Below are positions 5,646-48,643 of a DNA stretch of 64,000 nt, in pieces. The DNA lies in contig NZ_QVLS01000001.1 of NCBI RefSeq assembly GCF_003417535.1, forward strand, positions 434,001-498,000, in the 5' to 3' direction. A program made the position numbers and the translations under genes. The DNA comes from Hydrogenophaga borbori (GTDB taxonomy: Bacteria; Pseudomonadota; Gammaproteobacteria; Burkholderiales; Burkholderiaceae_C). The notes beneath the pieces are model-generated. The model had not been told where the DNA came from. It searched no databases and worked only from the letters and a program-made list of their open reading frames with translations. Positions within the stretch are counted from its first letter, which is position 1. Every line of letters begins with the position of its first letter.

Positions 5646-5720
5646 GCGGCGCATCAAGTTCCGCTGCCGCGTGCCGATAGGGCAGGAAGCGACAACTCCG
5701 TTGACTGGCGTGCCCTGATC

Positions 5721-5792
5721 GGGGCACCGCGGAACCGGCTGTGCCGGGCCGCAGGTGCCGCCCCGAGAGGGCGCGCGCAGTGCGGCGGGGGG
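5721..5792 (-). repeat. copy A of a GC-rich interspersed intergenic repeat
   Basis: Read on the minus strand this matches 49269-49340 over about 70 bases: a C-run plus CGCCGC start, a central CCCT...GGGGCGGCACC, then GCGGCCCGG and an AGCCGGT..CCGNGGTGCC end. Both copies lie in intergenic DNA. The copy fills much of the 186-base gap between tex and the first HDOD gene and could also act as a transcript end. Related GC-rich palindromic elements are familiar from Comamonadaceae genomes. Confidence 0.55.
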
Positions 5793-5831
5793 GTCAATGT
5801 CAGTCCGAGGTATTCATCCCCACCGCCCGCC

Positions 5832-6659
5832 ATGGATCTTGAAGCGCTCCTGAACTACCCCGGCGCCTTGCCGGCGATGTCCCGCACCGTCGCCGACCTG
5901 ATGTCGGAGATGAACAAGGACGACCCGAGCCCCAAGCGGGTGGCCGAGCTGGTGGGGCAAGACCCCTCGCTCACCACCCGGGTGCTGCGCCTGTCCAACT
6001 CCTCCTTCTTCCGCGCCAGCCGCAAGATCGGCAGCGCCCAGGAAGCCGTGGCCATGCTGGGCATGACGCACGTGCGCTCGCTGGTCATGGCCGCCGCGCT
6101 GGGCTCCAGCTTCAAGAACGTGCCCGGTGTGAACCTGCCGCAGTTCTGGCGCTACAGCCTGCGCGTGGCCGACATCTCCAAATCCCTGGCGGGCCTGCTG
6201 CGCCAGCAGGAGTCCAATGCCTATACGGCCGGCCTGATCCACGCCATCGGCGACCTGGTGATGCACATCGCCATGCCCGATGAGATCGCCCCCCTGGACA
6301 TGGGCACGCCGCCGCTGGACCTGCAGCGCGCCCAGGCCGAACGCAACCGTTTCGACTACACCTACGCCGAGGTCGGCGCGGGCATGGTGGAGCGCTGGAA
6401 CTTCCCCCCGGCCATCGTGAGCGCGCTGAAGCACCAGACCGCGCCCTTCGACGGCGACGTGTATGACCCGCTGGCCGGCATCCTGCACCTGGCGTCCTGG
6501 CGCGCGCGCGCCGAGGAAATCCAGCTCGACGATGGCGGCCTGGCCGCCACCTTCCCGGACATGGTGGGCCTGACCCTGGGACTGGACCTGGGCAGCGTGC
6601 TGGGCAAAGACCCGGCCGAGTGGGAGTTCACCGACGCGCTGTCCGCCTTCCTGGATTGA
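5832..6659 (+). CDS. HDOD domain protein (first of two paralogues)
   Basis: A 275-residue protein made largely of an HDOD domain (about residues 10-205), the catalytically degenerate HD-like helical domain found in bacterial signalling and motility control. LVGQDPSLTTRVLRLSNSSFF and FWRYSLRVADISKSLA are typical segments. No output domain is attached, so it is probably a scaffold or adaptor. The next gene is a clear paralogue (compare AYTAGLIHAIGDLVMH here with AFTAGLIHAIGELVMH there), indicating tandem duplication. The start has little upstream Shine-Dalgarno signal. Confidence 0.88.
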   Translation: MDLEALLNYPGALPAMSRTVADLMSEMNKDDPSPKRVAELVGQDPSLTTRVLRLSNSSFFRASRKIGSAQEAVAMLGMTHVRSLVMAAALGSSFKNVPGVNLPQFWRYSLRVADISKSLAGLLRQQESNAYTAGLIHAIGDLVMHIAMPDEIAPLDMGTPPLDLQRAQAERNRFDYTYAEVGAGMVERWNFPPAIVSALKHQTAPFDGDVYDPLAGILHLASWRARAEEIQLDDGGLAATFPDMVGLTLGLDLGSVLGKDPAEWEFTDALSAFLD

Positions 6660-6752
6660 TCGCACCCCATGTCGTCGATAGTTCTAAAGAAACGCCTGCC
6701 GGTAACGATAAACAAAGCAAACACCCGACGTTCCAGCCGCAAGAGGATCGCC

Positions 6753-7613
6753 ATGCATCTCGAAAAACTGCTCAAGCAGCCTCAGGCCCTTCCGTCCGTA
6801 CCCAAGGTGGTGCGGCGCCTGATCGAAACCTTCGAGCAGGCCGACGTCGATCCCATGCTGGTGGCCTCGCTGATCGAAGAGGACCCGGTCCTCACGGCCA
6901 AGCTGCTCAAGACCGCCAACTCGGCCTTCTTCGGCTTGTCGCGCAACGTGACCAACGCGCGTGAGGCCATGAACATCCTGGGCCTCATCAAGGTGCGCGC
7001 GCTGGTGGTGGCCAGCGCCCTGGGCGAGAGCTTCCACATGGTGGGTGGCGTCAACCTCAACCAGTTCTGGCGCTACAGCCTGAACACGGCCAACCTGTCG
7101 CGCTACATCGCGCTGCCCATCCGCATCGACGAGAACACCGCCTTCACCGCCGGCCTGATCCACGCCATCGGCGAACTGGTGATGCATGTGGGCATGCCCG
7201 AGGCCATGATCGAGCTGGACCGCAACATTCCCATGCTCGACCTCAAACGCGCCAAGGCCGAGCGCAGCCTGTTCGGCTACAGCTACGCCGAGGTGGGCGC
7301 GGCGCTGGCGCGCGAATGGAAGTTCCCGCGCCGCATGATCAACGCCATCGAACACCAGACGGCACCCTTCGACAACGACGTGTACGAACCGATCGCCGGC
7401 GTCATCCACATCGGCTCCTGGCGCGCCCGCGCCGAAGAGCAGGACCTGCGGGGCGAGCTGCTCATCAACACCTACCCGGACCCGGTGGGCGTGGTGCTGG
7501 GCATCGATCCGGACACCGTGGTGGCCGAGCGCATTCCCTCGATTTCCCGCCACCCGGTGGAGGACGAGGCCAAGCCGCGCGTCGAGCCGGCCAGCGATTC
7601 CGTGCCCCACTGA
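6753..7613 (+). CDS. HDOD domain protein (second of two paralogues)
   Basis: A 286-residue HDOD protein, paralogous to the preceding gene along its whole length. The HDOD region covers about residues 5-210, with LIEEDPVLTAKLLKTANSAFF and QFWRYSLNTANLSR. I chose the ATG at 6753 because it follows an AAGAGGA site and aligns with the start of the paralogue (MHLEKLL versus MDLEALL); an in-frame ATG at 6669 would add 28 basic residues. The last 35 residues are charged and not shared. The two genes are probably co-transcribed, 93 bases apart. Confidence 0.87.
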   Translation: MHLEKLLKQPQALPSVPKVVRRLIETFEQADVDPMLVASLIEEDPVLTAKLLKTANSAFFGLSRNVTNAREAMNILGLIKVRALVVASALGESFHMVGGVNLNQFWRYSLNTANLSRYIALPIRIDENTAFTAGLIHAIGELVMHVGMPEAMIELDRNIPMLDLKRAKAERSLFGYSYAEVGAALAREWKFPRRMINAIEHQTAPFDNDVYEPIAGVIHIGSWRARAEEQDLRGELLINTYPDPVGVVLGIDPDTVVAERIPSISRHPVEDEAKPRVEPASDSVPH

Positions 7614-41815: not shown

Positions 41816-44305
41816 TCAGGGCGTCAGCGACAGCTCGCTCGCCCACTTGGGTGGCTTCAGGCTCAGGGTGCGGTGCTTGTTGGCCAGCCAGGTCGCGCTC
41901 ATGTCGCGGTAGCGGCTGGAGAACACGTTGCCGCTCTGCCCCGTCTGGTAGATGAAGAGCGAGCGGTCGAGGTCGGCCAGGTCGTAGATGGCGCGCAGGC
42001 TGGCCGCGTGGCGGTTGGCGAAGGGCGCGTCGGCCTTGTCCAGGTGGTACTGGCCCACGTTCACCGTGAAGGGGTCGCCGCCGGTGGGCTCGCGCACCTC
42101 GAAGAAGCGGGCCAGCGGCTTCACGTTGGACAGGGGCCGGTGCACCGAGAGCGCCGGGTGCGCCTCGCCCCAGCGCCAGGCGGCCACGTCGGCGCCATAC
42201 TGGGCCGACAGCCTGTCCAGCGCGCGCGACAGCGCCTCGCCCGCCGCGTGCGGACAACCCTGCACGCCGCACCAGGCGCGGTTGTCGCTCTCCAGAAAGC
42301 CCTCCACCGCCTGGCGGAACAGGCGCTTGCCGTACAGGGACTCGAAGCGCTCCTTGCCCAGGCGCTGGCCGATCACGCCGCGCGTGAACTCGTCGACCCA
42401 GGCGCTGTAGATCAGCGGTGCGGGCGAGTCGGCCCGCATCACACCGTCGAAGCCCTGCAGCGCGGCGCGCGCGGCCTCGGCCAGGGGGTGGGTGGACGGC
42501 GCCTTCAGCAGGTGCGGCAGCAGGCGCAGCGTGGCCTCGGCGCGCTGGTCGCCCTGGATGGCGCGCATGCTCGCCACGTCGTGCTTGGGCGTGGCCTCCA
42601 GCAGCGTCTCGATGCGCTGTTGGCGGTACGGCGGCGCCCAGTCCTGGGTAAGGAAATGCGGGTAGTCCGGCGCGTGGATGCGCTGGTTGGCGGTGGCGAT
42701 CCAGCCGCGCGCGCCATCGTCCTGCGGCGTGTCGGCGTACGGCAGCCAGCCGGTCCAGTCGTAGCGCGGCTCCCAGCCGGGTGCCGGGGCCACGCCGCGG
42801 ATGTCGTTGTCGGCCGCGCGCAGCGGCACGCGCCCGGCCGCCTTGTAGGCGATGCGCCCGGTGCGGTCGGCCATCACGATGTTCTGCATGGGCGCGCGGA
42901 AGGTGGAGAACGCGGCCAGCAGTTGCTCCACGCTCTGCGCGCGGTTGGAGGCCAGCGTGGCGGACACGTTGTCTTCGTCGTCGAGCCCGGTCCAGCGCAG
43001 CGCCAGCACGAAGCGCGTGGTGTCGAGCACCTTGCCGTGCTGGGCCTGGGCGTCGCTCAGCACCGGGCCGTGGCGCGTGGCGCGCACCAGGTGCGTGACG
43101 TCGGCCTGCCCTTTCACGCGGATGGTCTCGGCGCGCACTGTGAACCGCTCCCAGGCGGGTTCGGCGCTGGCCGAGGGCACGCGGTACTCGCCGGGGTTGG
43201 CCGGGTTGATCTGTTCCAGGTAGAGGTCCTGCACGTCGGGCCCGGTGTTGGTGAAACCCCAGGCCACGCCGGCCGTGCGGCCCAGCACCACGAAGGGCGT
43301 GCCCGGCAGGGTGGCGCCGATCACGTCCATGCCCTTGAGGCCGCCCGCGTCGGGCGCCTGCAGCCGCGCGAAGTACCAGATGGCGGGCGCGCTCAGGCCC
43401 AGGTGCGGGTCGTTCGCCAGCAGCGGCTGGCCGCTCTGGGTGCGCGAGCCGGCCACCACCCAGTTGTTCGAGCCCTTGTTTTCGTTGAAGCCGAAGCCAT
43501 CGGTCCAGTCGCGCAGGTCCAGCGCGACGCGCTCGCGCCAGCCAGCCTGCGGGGCCGCCGGGGCCTGTGAAGTGGCGGTGCCATTGGCCTTGTTGAACAC
43601 GCCCAGTTCGCGGTACAGCCGGCCCAGGTCGGCGCTCGCGGCGGGCGCCTCGCCCGGGTACGGCGGGAACAGCTCCCACAGCGCGGGCGTGTCCAGCACC
43701 TGCAGCGCCGTCAGCCGGGCGAACTCGTTGCCCCAGTTCCCGCCCAGGTCCAGCGCCATCATGATCGACCAGCCCACGCTGTCGGCCGGGTCCCACCAGG
43801 CGCCGCGCAGGGCCTCCTCGCGCGGGTTCACGCCCAGCAGCAGGAACTCGGGCGTGAGCGCCTGTTCGCTGCTGGCAAAAAAGGCGTTGATGCCGGCGCT
43901 GTAGGCCTCCACCGCGGCCTTGACGTCCGGCGGCAGCTTGGCCAGCTGGCGCTGCGCCACCTGGCGAATGCCGAGGGTGCGCATGAGCTTGTCGGTCTCC
44001 AGTGTGGCCGGGCCCAGGAACTCGGACAGCGTGCCGCGCATGACCGCGCGGTTGAAGGCCAGCTGCCAGCCGCGCTCCTGGGCGTGCACGTAGCCCAGCG
44101 CCATCCAGGCGTCGCGCGGGTTCTGGGCCAGGATGTGGGTGACGTCGCTGCCGTCGCGGTTGACCTGCACCGGTGCGCCCAGGCCGCTGACCTGCAGCTG
44201 CCCGTCGGTGCGCGGCAGGGTCTGGCGGGCGTACCACAGGCCCAGGGCGGCGGCCAGCACGAGCAGCAGACCGATGAGGGTGGCGAGGCGGCGGATCCAG
44301 CGCAT
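41816..44305 (-). CDS. penicillin acylase family Ntn hydrolase (PvdQ/AHL-acylase related)
   Basis: An 829-residue precursor. An N-terminal hydrophobic anchor or signal (about 8-25) sends it to the periplasm. Residues 30-265 form the alpha chain; autocatalytic cleavage should expose Ser279 in NENKGSNNWVV, the beta-chain nucleophile, with the oxyanion region LLANDPHLGLSAPAIWY following. The family includes penicillin G acylase, AHL acylases such as PvdQ, and other N-acyl amide hydrolases; the substrate is not predictable. Its 5' region holds an ATACCCC/GGGGTAT palindrome, and it is divergent from the candidate N-acyl signal synthase, suggesting a role in signal turnover. Confidence 0.9.
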   Translation of the reverse strand: MRWIRRLATLIGLLLVLAAALGLWYARQTLPRTDGQLQVSGLGAPVQVNRDGSDVTHILAQNPRDAWMALGYVHAQERGWQLAFNRAVMRGTLSEFLGPATLETDKLMRTLGIRQVAQRQLAKLPPDVKAAVEAYSAGINAFFASSEQALTPEFLLLGVNPREEALRGAWWDPADSVGWSIMMALDLGGNWGNEFARLTALQVLDTPALWELFPPYPGEAPAASADLGRLYRELGVFNKANGTATSQAPAAPQAGWRERVALDLRDWTDGFGFNENKGSNNWVVAGSRTQSGQPLLANDPHLGLSAPAIWYFARLQAPDAGGLKGMDVIGATLPGTPFVVLGRTAGVAWGFTNTGPDVQDLYLEQINPANPGEYRVPSASAEPAWERFTVRAETIRVKGQADVTHLVRATRHGPVLSDAQAQHGKVLDTTRFVLALRWTGLDDEDNVSATLASNRAQSVEQLLAAFSTFRAPMQNIVMADRTGRIAYKAAGRVPLRAADNDIRGVAPAPGWEPRYDWTGWLPYADTPQDDGARGWIATANQRIHAPDYPHFLTQDWAPPYRQQRIETLLEATPKHDVASMRAIQGDQRAEATLRLLPHLLKAPSTHPLAEAARAALQGFDGVMRADSPAPLIYSAWVDEFTRGVIGQRLGKERFESLYGKRLFRQAVEGFLESDNRAWCGVQGCPHAAGEALSRALDRLSAQYGADVAAWRWGEAHPALSVHRPLSNVKPLARFFEVREPTGGDPFTVNVGQYHLDKADAPFANRHAASLRAIYDLADLDRSLFIYQTGQSGNVFSSRYRDMSATWLANKHRTLSLKPPKWASELSLTP

Positions 44306-44488: not shown

Positions 44489-45105
44489 ATGGCGCTTCAA
44501 ATCAACACTGCCCCTGCGTCTGGTGAGATGTCCCACCCAAGGGCGCGCTTCCGCACGGAGGACGTCACTCTTTGCCAACTGCGCGGAGACAAGGACATCG
44601 CCTCAGTAATGGCGCTGCGCCAGGAGATCGATTTGTCGGCCTATGTCACCCCGGATGGGGGCTTCTATTCACTCGAAAAAAAAGGGATGAGTGCGGGGTC
44701 GTCGTCGCATTCGATCTCGGCGATCGGCGCATCGGGACTATCCGAATGGTTCCGATGGGCTATGGGCTGACCCTGACTGAACAGCTGCTGCAGCCACTGG
44801 GTTCAAGCGCAGCAGTGGTTACGCCTGCCGATTGGGAGGTAGGGCGCTTGGTGTTGGCACCCGAGTTCCGCAGCGATGTCGATGCCTTGCGCCATTGCAT
44901 GCGGTTGGCGCTGCTGCATGCTTCTTCCGGAGCCCGCATTGATGCGCTTTGGGCGGCCTGTACGCATTCGCTGAGTCGCCTGTACCGCCGGTTCGGCCTG
45001 TCGCCAATGGCAAGAGATATCTCCTTACCATGTACGAAAAAAGTTTATACGATCATACGCGGGACGGCGGGTGACGTAGAGACGACGCTGAGAGGGTCCA
45101 GCTGA
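44489..45105 (+). CDS. FeeM/LuxI-fold acyltransferase (candidate acyl-signal synthase), frame shifted at an A8 run
   Basis: Two overlapping frames join into one 205-residue GNAT-fold protein if the ribosome slips -1, or one A is added, at the A8 run (44676-44683). Before it: LRGDKDIASVMALRQEIDL and GGFYSLEKK (to residue 65). After it: CGVVVAFDLGDRRIGTIRMVP, the core DWEVGRLVLAPEFRSD and LYRRFGLSPMARDI. This resembles N-acyl amino acid synthases (FeeM) and LuxI-type autoinducer synthases. Without the shift the product stops after 93 residues at 44770. The ATG at 44489 is supported by a GAGAAAG site. It sits 42 bases before a CqsS-like kinase; codon use is unlike the flanks. It may instead be a pseudogene or contain a sequencing error. 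Confidence 0.6.
44675..44686 (+). other. candidate -1 frameshift or slippage site
   Basis: In the zero frame the codons are GAA AAA AAA GGG, so A-AAA-AAA forms a slippery heptamer of the dnaX kind. A G-rich GGATGGGGG at 44653-44661, about 15 bases upstream, could act like the internal Shine-Dalgarno stimulator of dnaX. The -1 frame continues openly to 45105. Confidence 0.45.
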
Positions 45106-45147
45106 GTCCAACAGCACGACGTCGACATGGTTTGAAAGAGCGACACG

Positions 45148-47652
45148 GTGCCCGACATGGCTTCTTGGTTCGAGCGGTTGTTTGGTCATTTCAGGACATA
45201 TCACCAGCCCAGCCCGCTCTTGCTGCGGTACATGATCGTTTTCGGGCTTGTTGGGTTTCCGCTCATGTATCTGGTGCGCTTCGTACGTCCGTCGTCTGGT
45301 TTTGACGATTTCGCGCTGCGAGCGCTTGTCATGTCCCTGCTGCTGCTGCTTGCCATCCGGAACCACTGGCCCGAACGATTGCGGGCCTGCTACCTCCATG
45401 CCTGTTATGTGACGATGACAATCGCGTTGCCTTTCGCCCTGGTCTTCACTTCGCTCAAGAATGGCGGCGGGACAGCGGCCATAGGCAACACGTTCATGGC
45501 CGTGTTTCTACTGATGCTGTTGGCCGACTGGCGCAACTTCATCATCATGCTGGTCACGGGATCCGGCGCCGCCGCAGGCTTGTATGCGCTGACAGACCCG
45601 AACCCCCAAGTCCCACTCGACTACGTGTTCCGGCTCCCTGTGCTCTTGGTGAGCGTAGTGGGCGGCAACCTCTTCAAGTTCGCCCTGGAGCAAGCCACTG
45701 CAGAGCGCGTGCGTCAGGCGTACGCCTCACTGGCGGGTTCTATCGCGCATGAAATGCGCAACCCCATGGCGCAGGTGCGACACAGCCTGGAAAGGATTGG
45801 ACAAGTGCTACCCGTTTCACGACTTCAGGAGAAAGTCCAAATCGTCTCGCGTCTCGACGTCGAACGGCTGCATCGGCATGTCGCCATGGGTGAACTGGCG
45901 GTTCAGCGGGGATTGCAGGTCATTGCAATGACGCTTGACGAGGTGAATGACAAGCCACTCGACCCGCAACAGTTCGCCCTCCTCTCAGCCGCGCAGGTGT
46001 GCGTCAAGGCTGTGGAGGAGTACGGCTATGACAACGACCAGCAGCGTGCGAAAGTCAATTTGCAACTGCATAACGATTTCTTCTTTCTGGGAAGTGAGAC
46101 CACCCTATTGTTCGTGCTCTTCAACCTGATGAAGAACGCGTTGTATTACCTGCCGATTTGTCCAGATGCACGGCTGCAGATCACAGTGACCGACTGCCAG
46201 ATCGGCGTGCGCGACGATGGCCCTGGCATGACGTCCGATGTCCTGAAAAGCCTGTTCGAACCGTTCCGATCCGTGGGCAAGATCGGGGGGACCGGGCTGG
46301 GCTTGGCCTACTGCAGACGTGCGATGCGTGCGTTCGGTGGCGACATACGTTGTGAGTCAGTTGTCGGCAGCCATACGGAGTTCACGCTCATGTTTCCGCC
46401 ATTGAGTCCCACAGCGATCGGGATGAGACGCACGGCGCTAATGGATCAGGCTCGCGAGCAATGGGCGGGCTGGCGTTTCCTGGTGGTAGACGATGACGGC
46501 CTTTTGCGCACATCCACTGGCTTGCTCTTGCAGTCATTGGATCTGACCGTAGACGACGCAGCCGACGGCCTGCAAGCGCTAGACGCGCTGAAGGCGCAGC
46601 GCTACGACGGCATAGTGATGGACCTAAACATGCCGGGCATGAACGGCTATGAACTTGCCGAACGTGTGCGTCGCGGGGAAGTGCCGGTCAATCAACATAG
46701 CTGCCTCATCGCATGCACGAGCGAGCCCGGCTTTCTCACGCGATTGAAGGCAGAGAACGCGGGTTTTGACGGCCTTGTGAGCAAGCCTGTGGACGATGTC
46801 GTGCTGCTATCCGCGATAACCCAGGCCGTGCGAACAAGCAAGCACAAGCACTGGAGCGTAACTGCTTGGCTCAGTGGACATCGCGTGCTGCTGGTCGACG
46901 ACAGCTCCTGGAATCGAGCGGCTGTTGCGGAGTATCTCCGGCATGCCGGCGCCCTAGTGATCGAGGTTGACAGTGGGCCTGCCGCATTGTCTGAACTTAA
47001 TCACCACAACGAATGGCATGCCGTCATTCTGGACATTCAGATGCCGGGTATGAGCGGGATAGAACTGGCGCGCGCCATTCGAGCCTTGGACAGCCACTTG
47101 AAGACGCTTCCTATTCTGGCGACTACTGCGTATGCGTCCGACGACATCGTTGCCGAAGGGCGGGCTGTCGGAGTCGGGGGCTTTCTGATCAAGCCAGTGG
47201 AGGCACCACAACTCTGCCAACATCTGCGTACGCTGATGACCGAGCGCACCGCTTCGCCAGAGGTCGTTGCTGTTGCCGACGCGGCCCTGTCCGCCTCTAC
47301 CCTGCTAGACGCACGTCGGCTGGAGGGCTTCCAGCGCATTGGCATGGTTGAAGAGTTGTTGAAGGACTACTTGCCTCGAATCGATTTGCTGGTCGAACGC
47401 CTGACTGCCGCTGCGAAAGAGCGTGATCTGCAACAGTCGACGGATGTGTTGCATTCGCTGATGGGCATGAGCGGAGAGGCTGGCGCGAAAGCGCTGCACC
47501 TGTTCAGCCGTGGCATCTACATTCCCCTTCTGGAGCGCCAGCAATGGCCTCAGGACGCTGACTGGCTGGCCAAGCTATGGAATCTCACGCAGCTCACCAG
47601 CCGCGAACTGCGGGATTGGGTTGAGAAGCGCCGGTCGACGATCGCTGAGTGA
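45148..47652 (+). CDS. CqsS-like hybrid sensor histidine kinase (6TM-HK-REC-REC-HPt)
   Basis: An 834-residue membrane kinase. Six hydrophobic helices fill residues about 25-178; the pattern NHWPERL, ALPFALVFTSLKN and LLMLLADWRNFIIML resembles the sensor domain of quorum-sensing kinases such as CqsS/LqsS. HisKA has His201 in SIAHEMRNPMAQ; the HATPase has NLMKNAL, DDGPGM and GGTGLGLAYC. Receiver 1 has Asp492 (MDLNMPGMNG), receiver 2 Asp629 (LDIQMPGMSG), and a terminal HPt domain has His769 in VLHSLMGMSGE. The GTG start has GAAAGAG seven bases upstream. No response regulator with an output domain follows. It uses codons such as CTA and TTG more than its neighbours, hinting at acquisition. Confidence 0.87.
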   Translation: MPDMASWFERLFGHFRTYHQPSPLLLRYMIVFGLVGFPLMYLVRFVRPSSGFDDFALRALVMSLLLLLAIRNHWPERLRACYLHACYVTMTIALPFALVFTSLKNGGGTAAIGNTFMAVFLLMLLADWRNFIIMLVTGSGAAAGLYALTDPNPQVPLDYVFRLPVLLVSVVGGNLFKFALEQATAERVRQAYASLAGSIAHEMRNPMAQVRHSLERIGQVLPVSRLQEKVQIVSRLDVERLHRHVAMGELAVQRGLQVIAMTLDEVNDKPLDPQQFALLSAAQVCVKAVEEYGYDNDQQRAKVNLQLHNDFFFLGSETTLLFVLFNLMKNALYYLPICPDARLQITVTDCQIGVRDDGPGMTSDVLKSLFEPFRSVGKIGGTGLGLAYCRRAMRAFGGDIRCESVVGSHTEFTLMFPPLSPTAIGMRRTALMDQAREQWAGWRFLVVDDDGLLRTSTGLLLQSLDLTVDDAADGLQALDALKAQRYDGIVMDLNMPGMNGYELAERVRRGEVPVNQHSCLIACTSEPGFLTRLKAENAGFDGLVSKPVDDVVLLSAITQAVRTSKHKHWSVTAWLSGHRVLLVDDSSWNRAAVAEYLRHAGALVIEVDSGPAALSELNHHNEWHAVILDIQMPGMSGIELARAIRALDSHLKTLPILATTAYASDDIVAEGRAVGVGGFLIKPVEAPQLCQHLRTLMTERTASPEVVAVADAALSASTLLDARRLEGFQRIGMVEELLKDYLPRIDLLVERLTAAAKERDLQQSTDVLHSLMGMSGEAGAKALHLFSRGIYIPLLERQQWPQDADWLAKLWNLTQLTSRELRDWVEKRRSTIAE

Positions 47653-47692: not shown

Positions 47693-48643
47693 TCAGCGCG
47701 CGCTGGCGGCGGCGCTGCGGGCGAGCGCCATGCTGCCGTCCATGAGCTTGAAGCTCACGGTGGGGGCGCTGAAATCGGAGAAGGGCGCGCCCAGGGAGAT
47801 CTCGCCGTCGCTGTACAGCACGCAGTCCTGGCGGCGCAGCTGCACCACCGATTCGCTGCCCGCGAAGCGCACCCAGGTGCCATAGCTGCTCACGTCTTCC
47901 AGCACGTAGTTGCCGGAGACCATGCCGATGGTGGCGTGCATGCGCGAGACGCGCGGGTCGCTCACGACGAAGCTGGCCTCGGGCACGCGGCCGATGCGCA
48001 GCGGCAGGTCGCTGGAATTGAAGGTGCGCGTGGCGTCCAGCCAGGCGAGCTCGATGCCCGCGAAATCGGAGTCGTCCTTGGGCGTGATGGCGTGCAGGTC
48101 GGCCGGCACCGTGAGGAACTCGGACTGCATGTCCGCCTGCCACTCGATGCGGAACACCTCGCAGGTATCGACCTTGCCCTTGATGCGCATGGCGCCCAGG
48201 CTGCGGTTGCGCACCAGCGAGCGCGGCCCGAGCGACTGGATGACGGTGTCGCTGGCGAAGATCTGTTCCGGGCCGGCCAGGTCGCTCAGGCGCGAGGCCA
48301 GGTTCACCGCGTCGCCGAAGCAGTCGCCGTCCACCCACACCACCGAGCCGCGCGCCAGGCCGATCTGCATCAGCAGCTTGAGGTGGGCCGGCCACTGCTG
48401 CACACGTTTGGCGTGCTCCTGCTGGATCTGCACCATGGAATCCACCGCGGCGCGGTTGTCGGCGAAGGCCATCAGCACCCCGTCGCCCAGCATCTTGACC
48501 ACGGTGCCGCCGTTCGCCTGGCCGCGTGCGCCAATCCACTGCGTCAGCTTGGTGACCGCCTTGGTGGCCCGGTCGTTGCCCAGTGTCTCGAACACGGACG
48601 TGCTACCGGTGAGGTCGACGAAGGCAATCGTGAGTTCGGGCAT
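47693..48643 (-). CDS. class III adenylate cyclase fused to an FHA domain
   Basis: A 316-residue cytoplasmic protein. Residues 1-170 are a class III cyclase: metal Asp10 (FVDLTGST) and Asp54 (KMLGDGVLMAF), the purine-specifying Lys50 and Asp111, and the transition-state pair Asn114 and Arg118 in DAVNLASRL, consistent with an active adenylate cyclase. Residues about 205-285 are an FHA phosphothreonine-binding domain: LRIGRVPEASFVVSDPRVSRMHA and YGTWV. Cyclase-FHA proteins link cAMP production to Ser/Thr phosphorylation. It converges with the CqsS-like kinase gene 40 bases away and returns to GC-rich codon use. Confidence 0.88.
   Translation of the reverse strand: MPELTIAFVDLTGSTSVFETLGNDRATKAVTKLTQWIGARGQANGGTVVKMLGDGVLMAFADNRAAVDSMVQIQQEHAKRVQQWPAHLKLLMQIGLARGSVVWVDGDCFGDAVNLASRLSDLAGPEQIFASDTVIQSLGPRSLVRNRSLGAMRIKGKVDTCEVFRIEWQADMQSEFLTVPADLHAITPKDDSDFAGIELAWLDATRTFNSSDLPLRIGRVPEASFVVSDPRVSRMHATIGMVSGNYVLEDVSSYGTWVRFAGSESVVQLRRQDCVLYSDGEISLGAPFSDFSAPTVSFKLMDGSMALARSAAASAR

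Follow-up and report, generated by a model that had tools for sequence, protein, structure and literature searches.

A conserved run of eight adenines divides a FeeM/LuxI-type acyltransferase gene that adjoins a CqsS-type hybrid kinase gene in Burkholderiales

The window analyzed here is a stretch of 64,000 nucleotides from Hydrogenophaga borbori (positions 434001-498000 of contig C1, in a genome of 4.58 Mb), and our subject is a pair of forward-strand genes within it, encoding a putative signal synthase of the acyltransferase type and a hybrid histidine kinase. A sequence-only reading of this DNA had placed a GNAT-fold acyltransferase at 44489. Its WEVGRLVLAPEFRS motif is indeed present, but the enzyme is not encoded by a single open reading frame (ORF) from 44489: the gene is split at a run of eight adenines (A8), and the WEVGRLV region lies in the -1 frame. 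The FeeM/LuxI-like N-terminal part (44489..44683, +) extends in the zero frame from ATG 44489 to GAA AAA AAA, and matches with 50 bits a profile built from the N parts of other A8 loci. The putative slippage run itself (GAAAAAAAAG) occupies 44676..44683 (+). The C-terminal part, recognized by Pfam FeeM (E 2.6e-5) and by alignment, follows in the -1 frame at 44683..45105 (+, stop included), and reads RDECGVV...WEVGRLVLAP...RLYRRFG to its end at 45105 of the window. Past the run, the zero frame continues as a tail (44684..44770, +) closed by a stop at 44768-44770; the length of this tail is unconserved, the stop lying 3 to 84 codons past the run in the 51 loci described below. This conserved frameshift in the synthase gene, missed by the earlier reading, is the most unusual feature of the locus.

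The kinase gene (45148..47652, +) is intact and encodes a CqsS/LqsS-type hybrid histidine kinase of 834 amino acids from GTG 45148, with ATG 45157 as an alternative start. The six-helix membrane sensor assigned to it by the sequence-only reading is borne out: the AlphaFold2 model (mean predicted local distance difference test score, pLDDT, 88.4) has six long hydrophobic helices in the sensor, which covers about residues 1-190 (45148..45717, +) and is matched by profile-profile comparison to CqsA-linked sensors. The HisKA match is weak (15.3 bits for a cut-off of 26.9), and the kinase further carries a HATPase_c domain (residues 317-417; 46096..46398, +), a first receiver domain starting near residue 443, a second receiver domain (residues 580-693; 46885..47226, +) and an Hpt-like domain (residues 736-815; 47353..47592, +) that scores 18.2 bits against a cut-off of 24.6 and exceeds the Pfam cut-off at another locus, L043. 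Among NCBIfam families, LuxN matches the kinase best, with 249 bits for a cut-off of 1550, over residues 186-548.

Loci were collected with protein profiles, independently of both the run and the kinase. When named genomes were searched with a FeeM-type profile, 28 loci turned up, in Hydrogenophaga, Ramlibacter, Paraburkholderia and their relatives; matches were also present in 12 of the 399 genomes of a family sample, that of the window included, and in 43 of 60 genomes of a Ramlibacter sample. Several kinds of hit were left out of the counts: duplicates, recognized by identity over the first 100 C-part residues; the second fragments of hits that were broken (L051 and L054, with their copies L165 and L162); the short loci from a first look (L001-L017, L055-L111); and, in the samples of the order, the class and the Paraburkholderia-type genus, weak matches with E between 1e-5 and 1e-3 (L056-L063, L208 and L210). 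The 72 distinct loci that remained comprise 51 with the run and the N part in the other frame, one with A8 in frame (L051) and 20 without the run. Among the named loci L034-L054, the exact A8 is found at the same codons in 21 of 21 and the frame changes there in 20. In the 51 frame-changing loci the run has eight adenines in 50 and nine in one, at the same codon and with the same frame offset; the A9 locus, L160, has compensating bases that leave the offset unchanged.

The G+A8 string is kept without variation in 51 of 51 loci, although Glu and Lys codon usage in the remainder of these genes predicts GAA AAA AAA in about 1.3 of them, and the longest such runs at their other conserved codons are of 2 to 7. 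Likewise, the 21 named loci (237,936 bases) hold 23 A or T runs of at least 8, of which 21 are the conserved run. The proteins of the A8 loci, from several genera of soil and water bacteria related to Hydrogenophaga and Ramlibacter, share 40-60% identity, with invariant residues retained in both acyltransferase halves, among them a conserved R and D directly past the run. A shift-prone motif and its offset are thus conserved among diverged species. In a tree of 70 C parts (L051 and L054, which are short, were omitted), a clade with 52 rows and support 100/99 contains the A8 loci, and 18 in-frame rows form its sister clade (support 100/99). The other two in-frame members, L139 and L159, lie at separate places inside the A8 clade, so that the run label must change three times, perhaps by a single gain and two losses. 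Their junctions read E-S-I-R-D (L139) and E-R-R-K-D (L159), where the others would read E-K-K-R-D. In these two, as in the 18 rows of the sister clade, the reading frame is continuous and no residue is added or missing, so the fused product has the same length. These natural in-frame versions point to the fusion as the working product. As a side observation, the R. terrae locus (L054) shows further breaks in both genes.

The sequence-only reading had also taken the enzyme for a FeeM/LuxI-fold acyltransferase, and profile searches place it in the FeeM family. The Pfam FeeM family (PF21926) matches 23 of 26 rows at E<=0.001; the window C part alone reaches 24.5 bits, under the cut-off of 27, and the in-frame relative L027/L022 exceeds it with 35.3 bits. 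An acyltransferase profile finds the N-acyl homoserine lactone (AHL) synthase of PDB entry 3p2f (E 3e-5), in an alignment that takes in the W-E-x-x-R region; when the single fragment from the window was the query, the PDB gave nothing under E 0.1. The Pfam LuxI family was not matched: for the 26 rows, the scan listed no families other than FeeM and three of the GNAT type. Modelled with AlphaFold2 (pLDDT 81.6), the in-frame relative L027 has a GNAT-like strand order, and its junction lies within the helix preceding the second strand, so that the zero-frame fragment would be without most of the fold. The enzyme belongs, by its sequence, to the FeeM/LuxI superfamily, and probably makes an acylated chemical signal.

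The kinase gene follows the acyltransferase gene on the same strand in 71 of the 72 distinct loci, with a median gap of 65 bases, so the adjacency first seen in a single genome is more than a matter of chance. A search from the kinase side in 59 Hydrogenophaga-type genomes gave nine matches, six of which adjoin an acyltransferase; two others (G029 and G011:C64) were not found to, and one (G011:C59) is at a contig end. Strong acyltransferase matches occurred only in Burkholderiales within the samples taken: the order sample gave 9 of 399 genomes (that of the window and eight weak), the class sample 2 of 369 (that of the window and one weak) and the Paraburkholderia-type genus sample 3 of 144, one of them weak. 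Two further gene types recur around the A8 pairs, in numbers that short contigs may reduce. A haem-oxygenase-like gene (PF14518; for example L036 6482-7138 and L045 5105-5785) lies between the pair or just upstream in 15 of the 51 loci, and possibly encodes an enzyme that tailors the signal; in 37 of 51, a REC-HisKA-HATPase gene is present downstream. Neither adjoins the window pair.

The sensors can be compared with those of the CqsA-linked type. A FeeM-linked sensor profile detected sensors in 17 of the 399 genomes of the order sample, that of the window included, and a CqsA-like gene adjoins in 14 of the 18 sensor regions fetched from it; of the other four, L190 and L192 are short contigs and L201 and L205 have no CqsA-like gene. 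FeeM-linked and CqsA-linked sensors align by hhalign with a probability of 100 and E 4.1e-41 over 191 columns; a PDB search with the sensor profile found no match. Two columns separate the groups cleanly. The first is Trp in 14 of 14 CqsA-linked and in 0 of 71 FeeM-linked sensors; the second is Ser in 13 of 14 CqsA-linked sensors, with Asn in 63, Asp in 5, Ser in 1 and gaps in 2 of the 71 FeeM-linked ones. The window kinase has Ala111 and Asn114 there (45478..45489, +). In Vibrio cholerae CqsS, according to PMC3376566, W104 and S107 in transmembrane helix 4 read the C3 group of the CAI-1 head. Placed by motif and helix, without an alignment of V. cholerae CqsS, the two columns would be these positions. 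The head-group positions of CqsS-type sensors are then changed in FeeM-linked sensors, which fits a different ligand.

Among the regions without a CqsA-like gene, L205 (G000:C36; 4866-7515, -) holds two tandem weak CqsS-type sensors with an adjoining LqsR-like gene, and L201 (3065-5641, -) a CqsS-type hybrid kinase with a 438-amino-acid ORF upstream (5670-6986, -). The H. borbori genome also encodes, on another contig (L168, G000:C6; 7897-9138, - and 6878-7864, +), an alpha-hydroxyketone-type autoinducer synthase, scoring 556 bits for a cut-off of 428, with an LqsR-like regulator.

We propose that the two genes form an acyl-signal synthase-receptor pair whose synthase requires slippage to be made, a reading to which we give a probability of about 0.7. 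The FeeM/LuxI-superfamily acyltransferase would acylate an amine, most likely an amino acid, with a fatty acyl chain; the adjacent hybrid kinase would sense the acyl product through a six-helix sensor drawn from the CqsS/LqsS family with altered ligand-reading positions. That the kinase senses the product of its neighbor had been suggested by the sequence-only reading, and the adjacency and the altered sensor columns partly support it. Each prediction of that reading that sequence could test (the family of the enzyme, the homology of the sensor, the conserved adjacency) came out in its favor. In the absence of slippage, only an N-terminal fragment of about 60-110 residues, plus the unconserved tail, would be produced. 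A one-nucleotide slip at A8, by realignment of RNA polymerase or by an unaided -1 ribosomal shift, would give the full enzyme, and this recoding would set, and perhaps regulate, the output of signal. Taken as a whole, we lean slightly towards a Burkholderiales signalling system not described before, in which a new acyl signal would be gated by programmed slippage, with an A8 run that arose once, was kept across genera and fixes or tunes how much active synthase is made relative to dead fragment, and with a re-specified CqsS-family receptor. If so, a signal dose set by recoding of the synthase would be a layer of control new to quorum-type signalling, as far as our literature search shows, and the CqsA-linked and FeeM-linked sensors, which differ cleanly at two head-group positions, would offer a natural experiment on change of receptor ligand. 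Moreover, since annotation would probably record split genes of this kind as broken or as two pieces, genome surveys may overlook this synthase family.

An RNA polymerase slip of one base and a -1 ribosomal slip on A_AAA_AAA would yield an identical protein. In E. coli, for another gene, PMC3711429 gives frameshifting at A runs of 10% for A7, 40% for A9 and 63% for A11. Several observations count against the proposed pair and its slippage. AGGAG or GGAGG is found within 18 bases upstream of the run in 0 of 51 loci, and folding downstream of the run is no stronger than that of shuffled sequence (mean z -0.33 and -0.42); a consensus fold gave an energy of 0 in real and shuffled alignments alike, the alignment being too diverse. 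With none of these usual -1 stimulators, ribosomal frameshifting would be weak. Their absence tilts the balance towards transcriptional slippage, without deciding the matter, and A8 is short for transcriptional slippage. In R. montanisoli (L051), the A8 is kept yet the gene is in frame there, another break lying further on. One acyltransferase, L026/L032, is the single exception without a kinase, and no neighboring acyltransferase was found for two of the kinases (L023/G029 and L024/G011:C64). The window pair lacks, on its downstream side, the REC-HisKA-HATPase response regulator gene that 37 of the 51 A8 loci carry there, although a copy lies 70 kb away. Overall, homology, adjacency, the invariance of run and offset and the natural in-frame versions are established from sequence; slippage, its mechanism, the acyl product and its sensing by the kinase are inferences.

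The best-surviving alternative concerns the receptor: the kinase might sense something else, such as the alpha-hydroxyketone made by the CqsA of the same genome, adjacency then reflecting shared regulation. The presence of that synthase and the existence of solo kinases speak for it, but the near-constant adjacency, the loss of the CqsA-linked Trp/Ser pair in FeeM-linked sensors and the fact that the CqsA of the genome has an LqsR-like neighbor of its own make it improbable. We give still less weight to the idea that the N and C parts are translated separately and act as two subunits. A start codon in the -1 frame does occur upstream of the run in 14 of 51 loci, the window included, and others lie 3 to 52 codons past the run; however, 37 of 51 loci have no -1-frame start between the last stop and the run, so that the C part is unlikely to be translated by itself there, the conserved R and D past the run precede any downstream start, and the relatives are single in-frame genes.

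Two explanations treat the run itself as the source of the break. If it were a contingency tract, slippage of the DNA would switch the synthase on and off by phase variation, for which the position of a homopolymer within coding sequence and the off state of the synthase in all assemblies examined could be invoked; with a single run length among distinct loci (the lone A9 being compensated) and no locus of the A8 clade found switched on through run length alone, we rejected this as quite unlikely. A pseudogene or sequencing error, by which the window acyltransferase would simply be broken at its homopolymer, is the least credible of all: the frame is off by one base at an A8, where errors of this sort are most frequent, the GC content of the locus is unusual (0.608 against 0.700-0.724) and two long-read-like genomes (L051 and L054) carry extra breaks, but the run and offset are alike in 51 distinct loci, both halves keep their invariant residues and other conserved codons lack such runs. 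Conservation in 51 of 51 refutes sequencing error or decay as a general explanation, and the frameshift is neither.

Compared with known systems, the proposed synthase-receptor pair is closest in receptor to CqsA-CqsS and LqsA-LqsS, with which it shares a homologous six-helix sensor and, as in the 14 of 18 order-sample regions above, a receptor gene adjoining a synthase gene. It differs in its synthase, which there is a pyridoxal phosphate (PLP) enzyme and here an acyltransferase of the FeeM/LuxI superfamily that would need a frameshift, and in the replacement of the head-group Trp/Ser pair; no PLP synthase is found among the window neighbors. In logic it resembles LuxM-LuxN of Vibrio, in which an AHL synthase stands beside a multi-helix hybrid kinase. 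The LuxN match of the window kinase, however, spans the kinase and receiver part and not the sensor, which is of the CqsS type here, and we know of no frameshift in luxM. The sequence-only reading had called the pairing undescribed: our searches of titles and abstract openings revealed, among the matches listed, no FeeM-kinase pair, so this holds for FeeM, but LuxM-LuxN is a precedent for an acyl-signal synthase beside a hybrid kinase. The same searches gave no recoded autoinducer synthase, although the supplementary tables of PMC3711429 may list one. The FeeM N-acyl amino acid synthases share the family (PF21926) but not the frameshift; as far as the literature search shows, known FeeM genes go with biosynthesis and not with a receptor kinase. 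According to PMC10653808, the REC-HisKA-HATPase protein encoded downstream has the make-up of PhcR in the PhcB-PhcS-PhcR-PhcQ system, a comparison of domain make-up only; a PhcB methyltransferase is not seen in the acyltransferase-kinase pair. As regards recoding, dnaX of Thermus, Mg chelatase and Citrobacter tssM are cases in which one protein is encoded in two frames that meet at a conserved A run (PMC3711429, PMC4256274). The joining by an A run is alike, the product here is a putative signal synthase, and no cluster of that kind is named in the accessible parts of these two papers.

The composition of the window pair sets it apart from its surroundings. The GC values given above are those of the pair (0.608) and of the adjoining 4-kb blocks (0.700-0.724), and third-position GC is 0.66-0.70 in the pair genes against 0.94-0.96 in flanking genes. 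A copy of the REC-HisKA-HATPase gene, 67% identical, lies 70 kb away on the same contig (L211, G000:C1:408137-409300), between the genes that in L043 enclose the entire module (as judged by reading the sequences, with no family search). This distant copy and the low GC of the pair together suggest that the module was lost at an old site and arrived at a new one. A plasmid search gave no match, and Rfam, promoter and terminator scans found nothing.

On one side, the pair is flanked by a penicillin amidase gene (PF01804, 685 bits; 41816-44305, -), divergent from the acyltransferase, with a weak PvdQ match (76 bits for a cut-off of 950). Enzymes of this type can cleave N-acyl amides; as a component of the system we rejected this one, since it lies beside the pair in the window only, among the 72 loci. 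On the other side, an adenylate/guanylate cyclase gene with an FHA domain (47693-48643, -) is convergent with the kinase gene. A second acyltransferase-kinase module, in frame, is present 60 kb away in the same genome (L018, G000:C1:416568-419360), and both kinds of module lie 13-16 kb apart in five other genomes (G852, G845, G863, G896 and G581).

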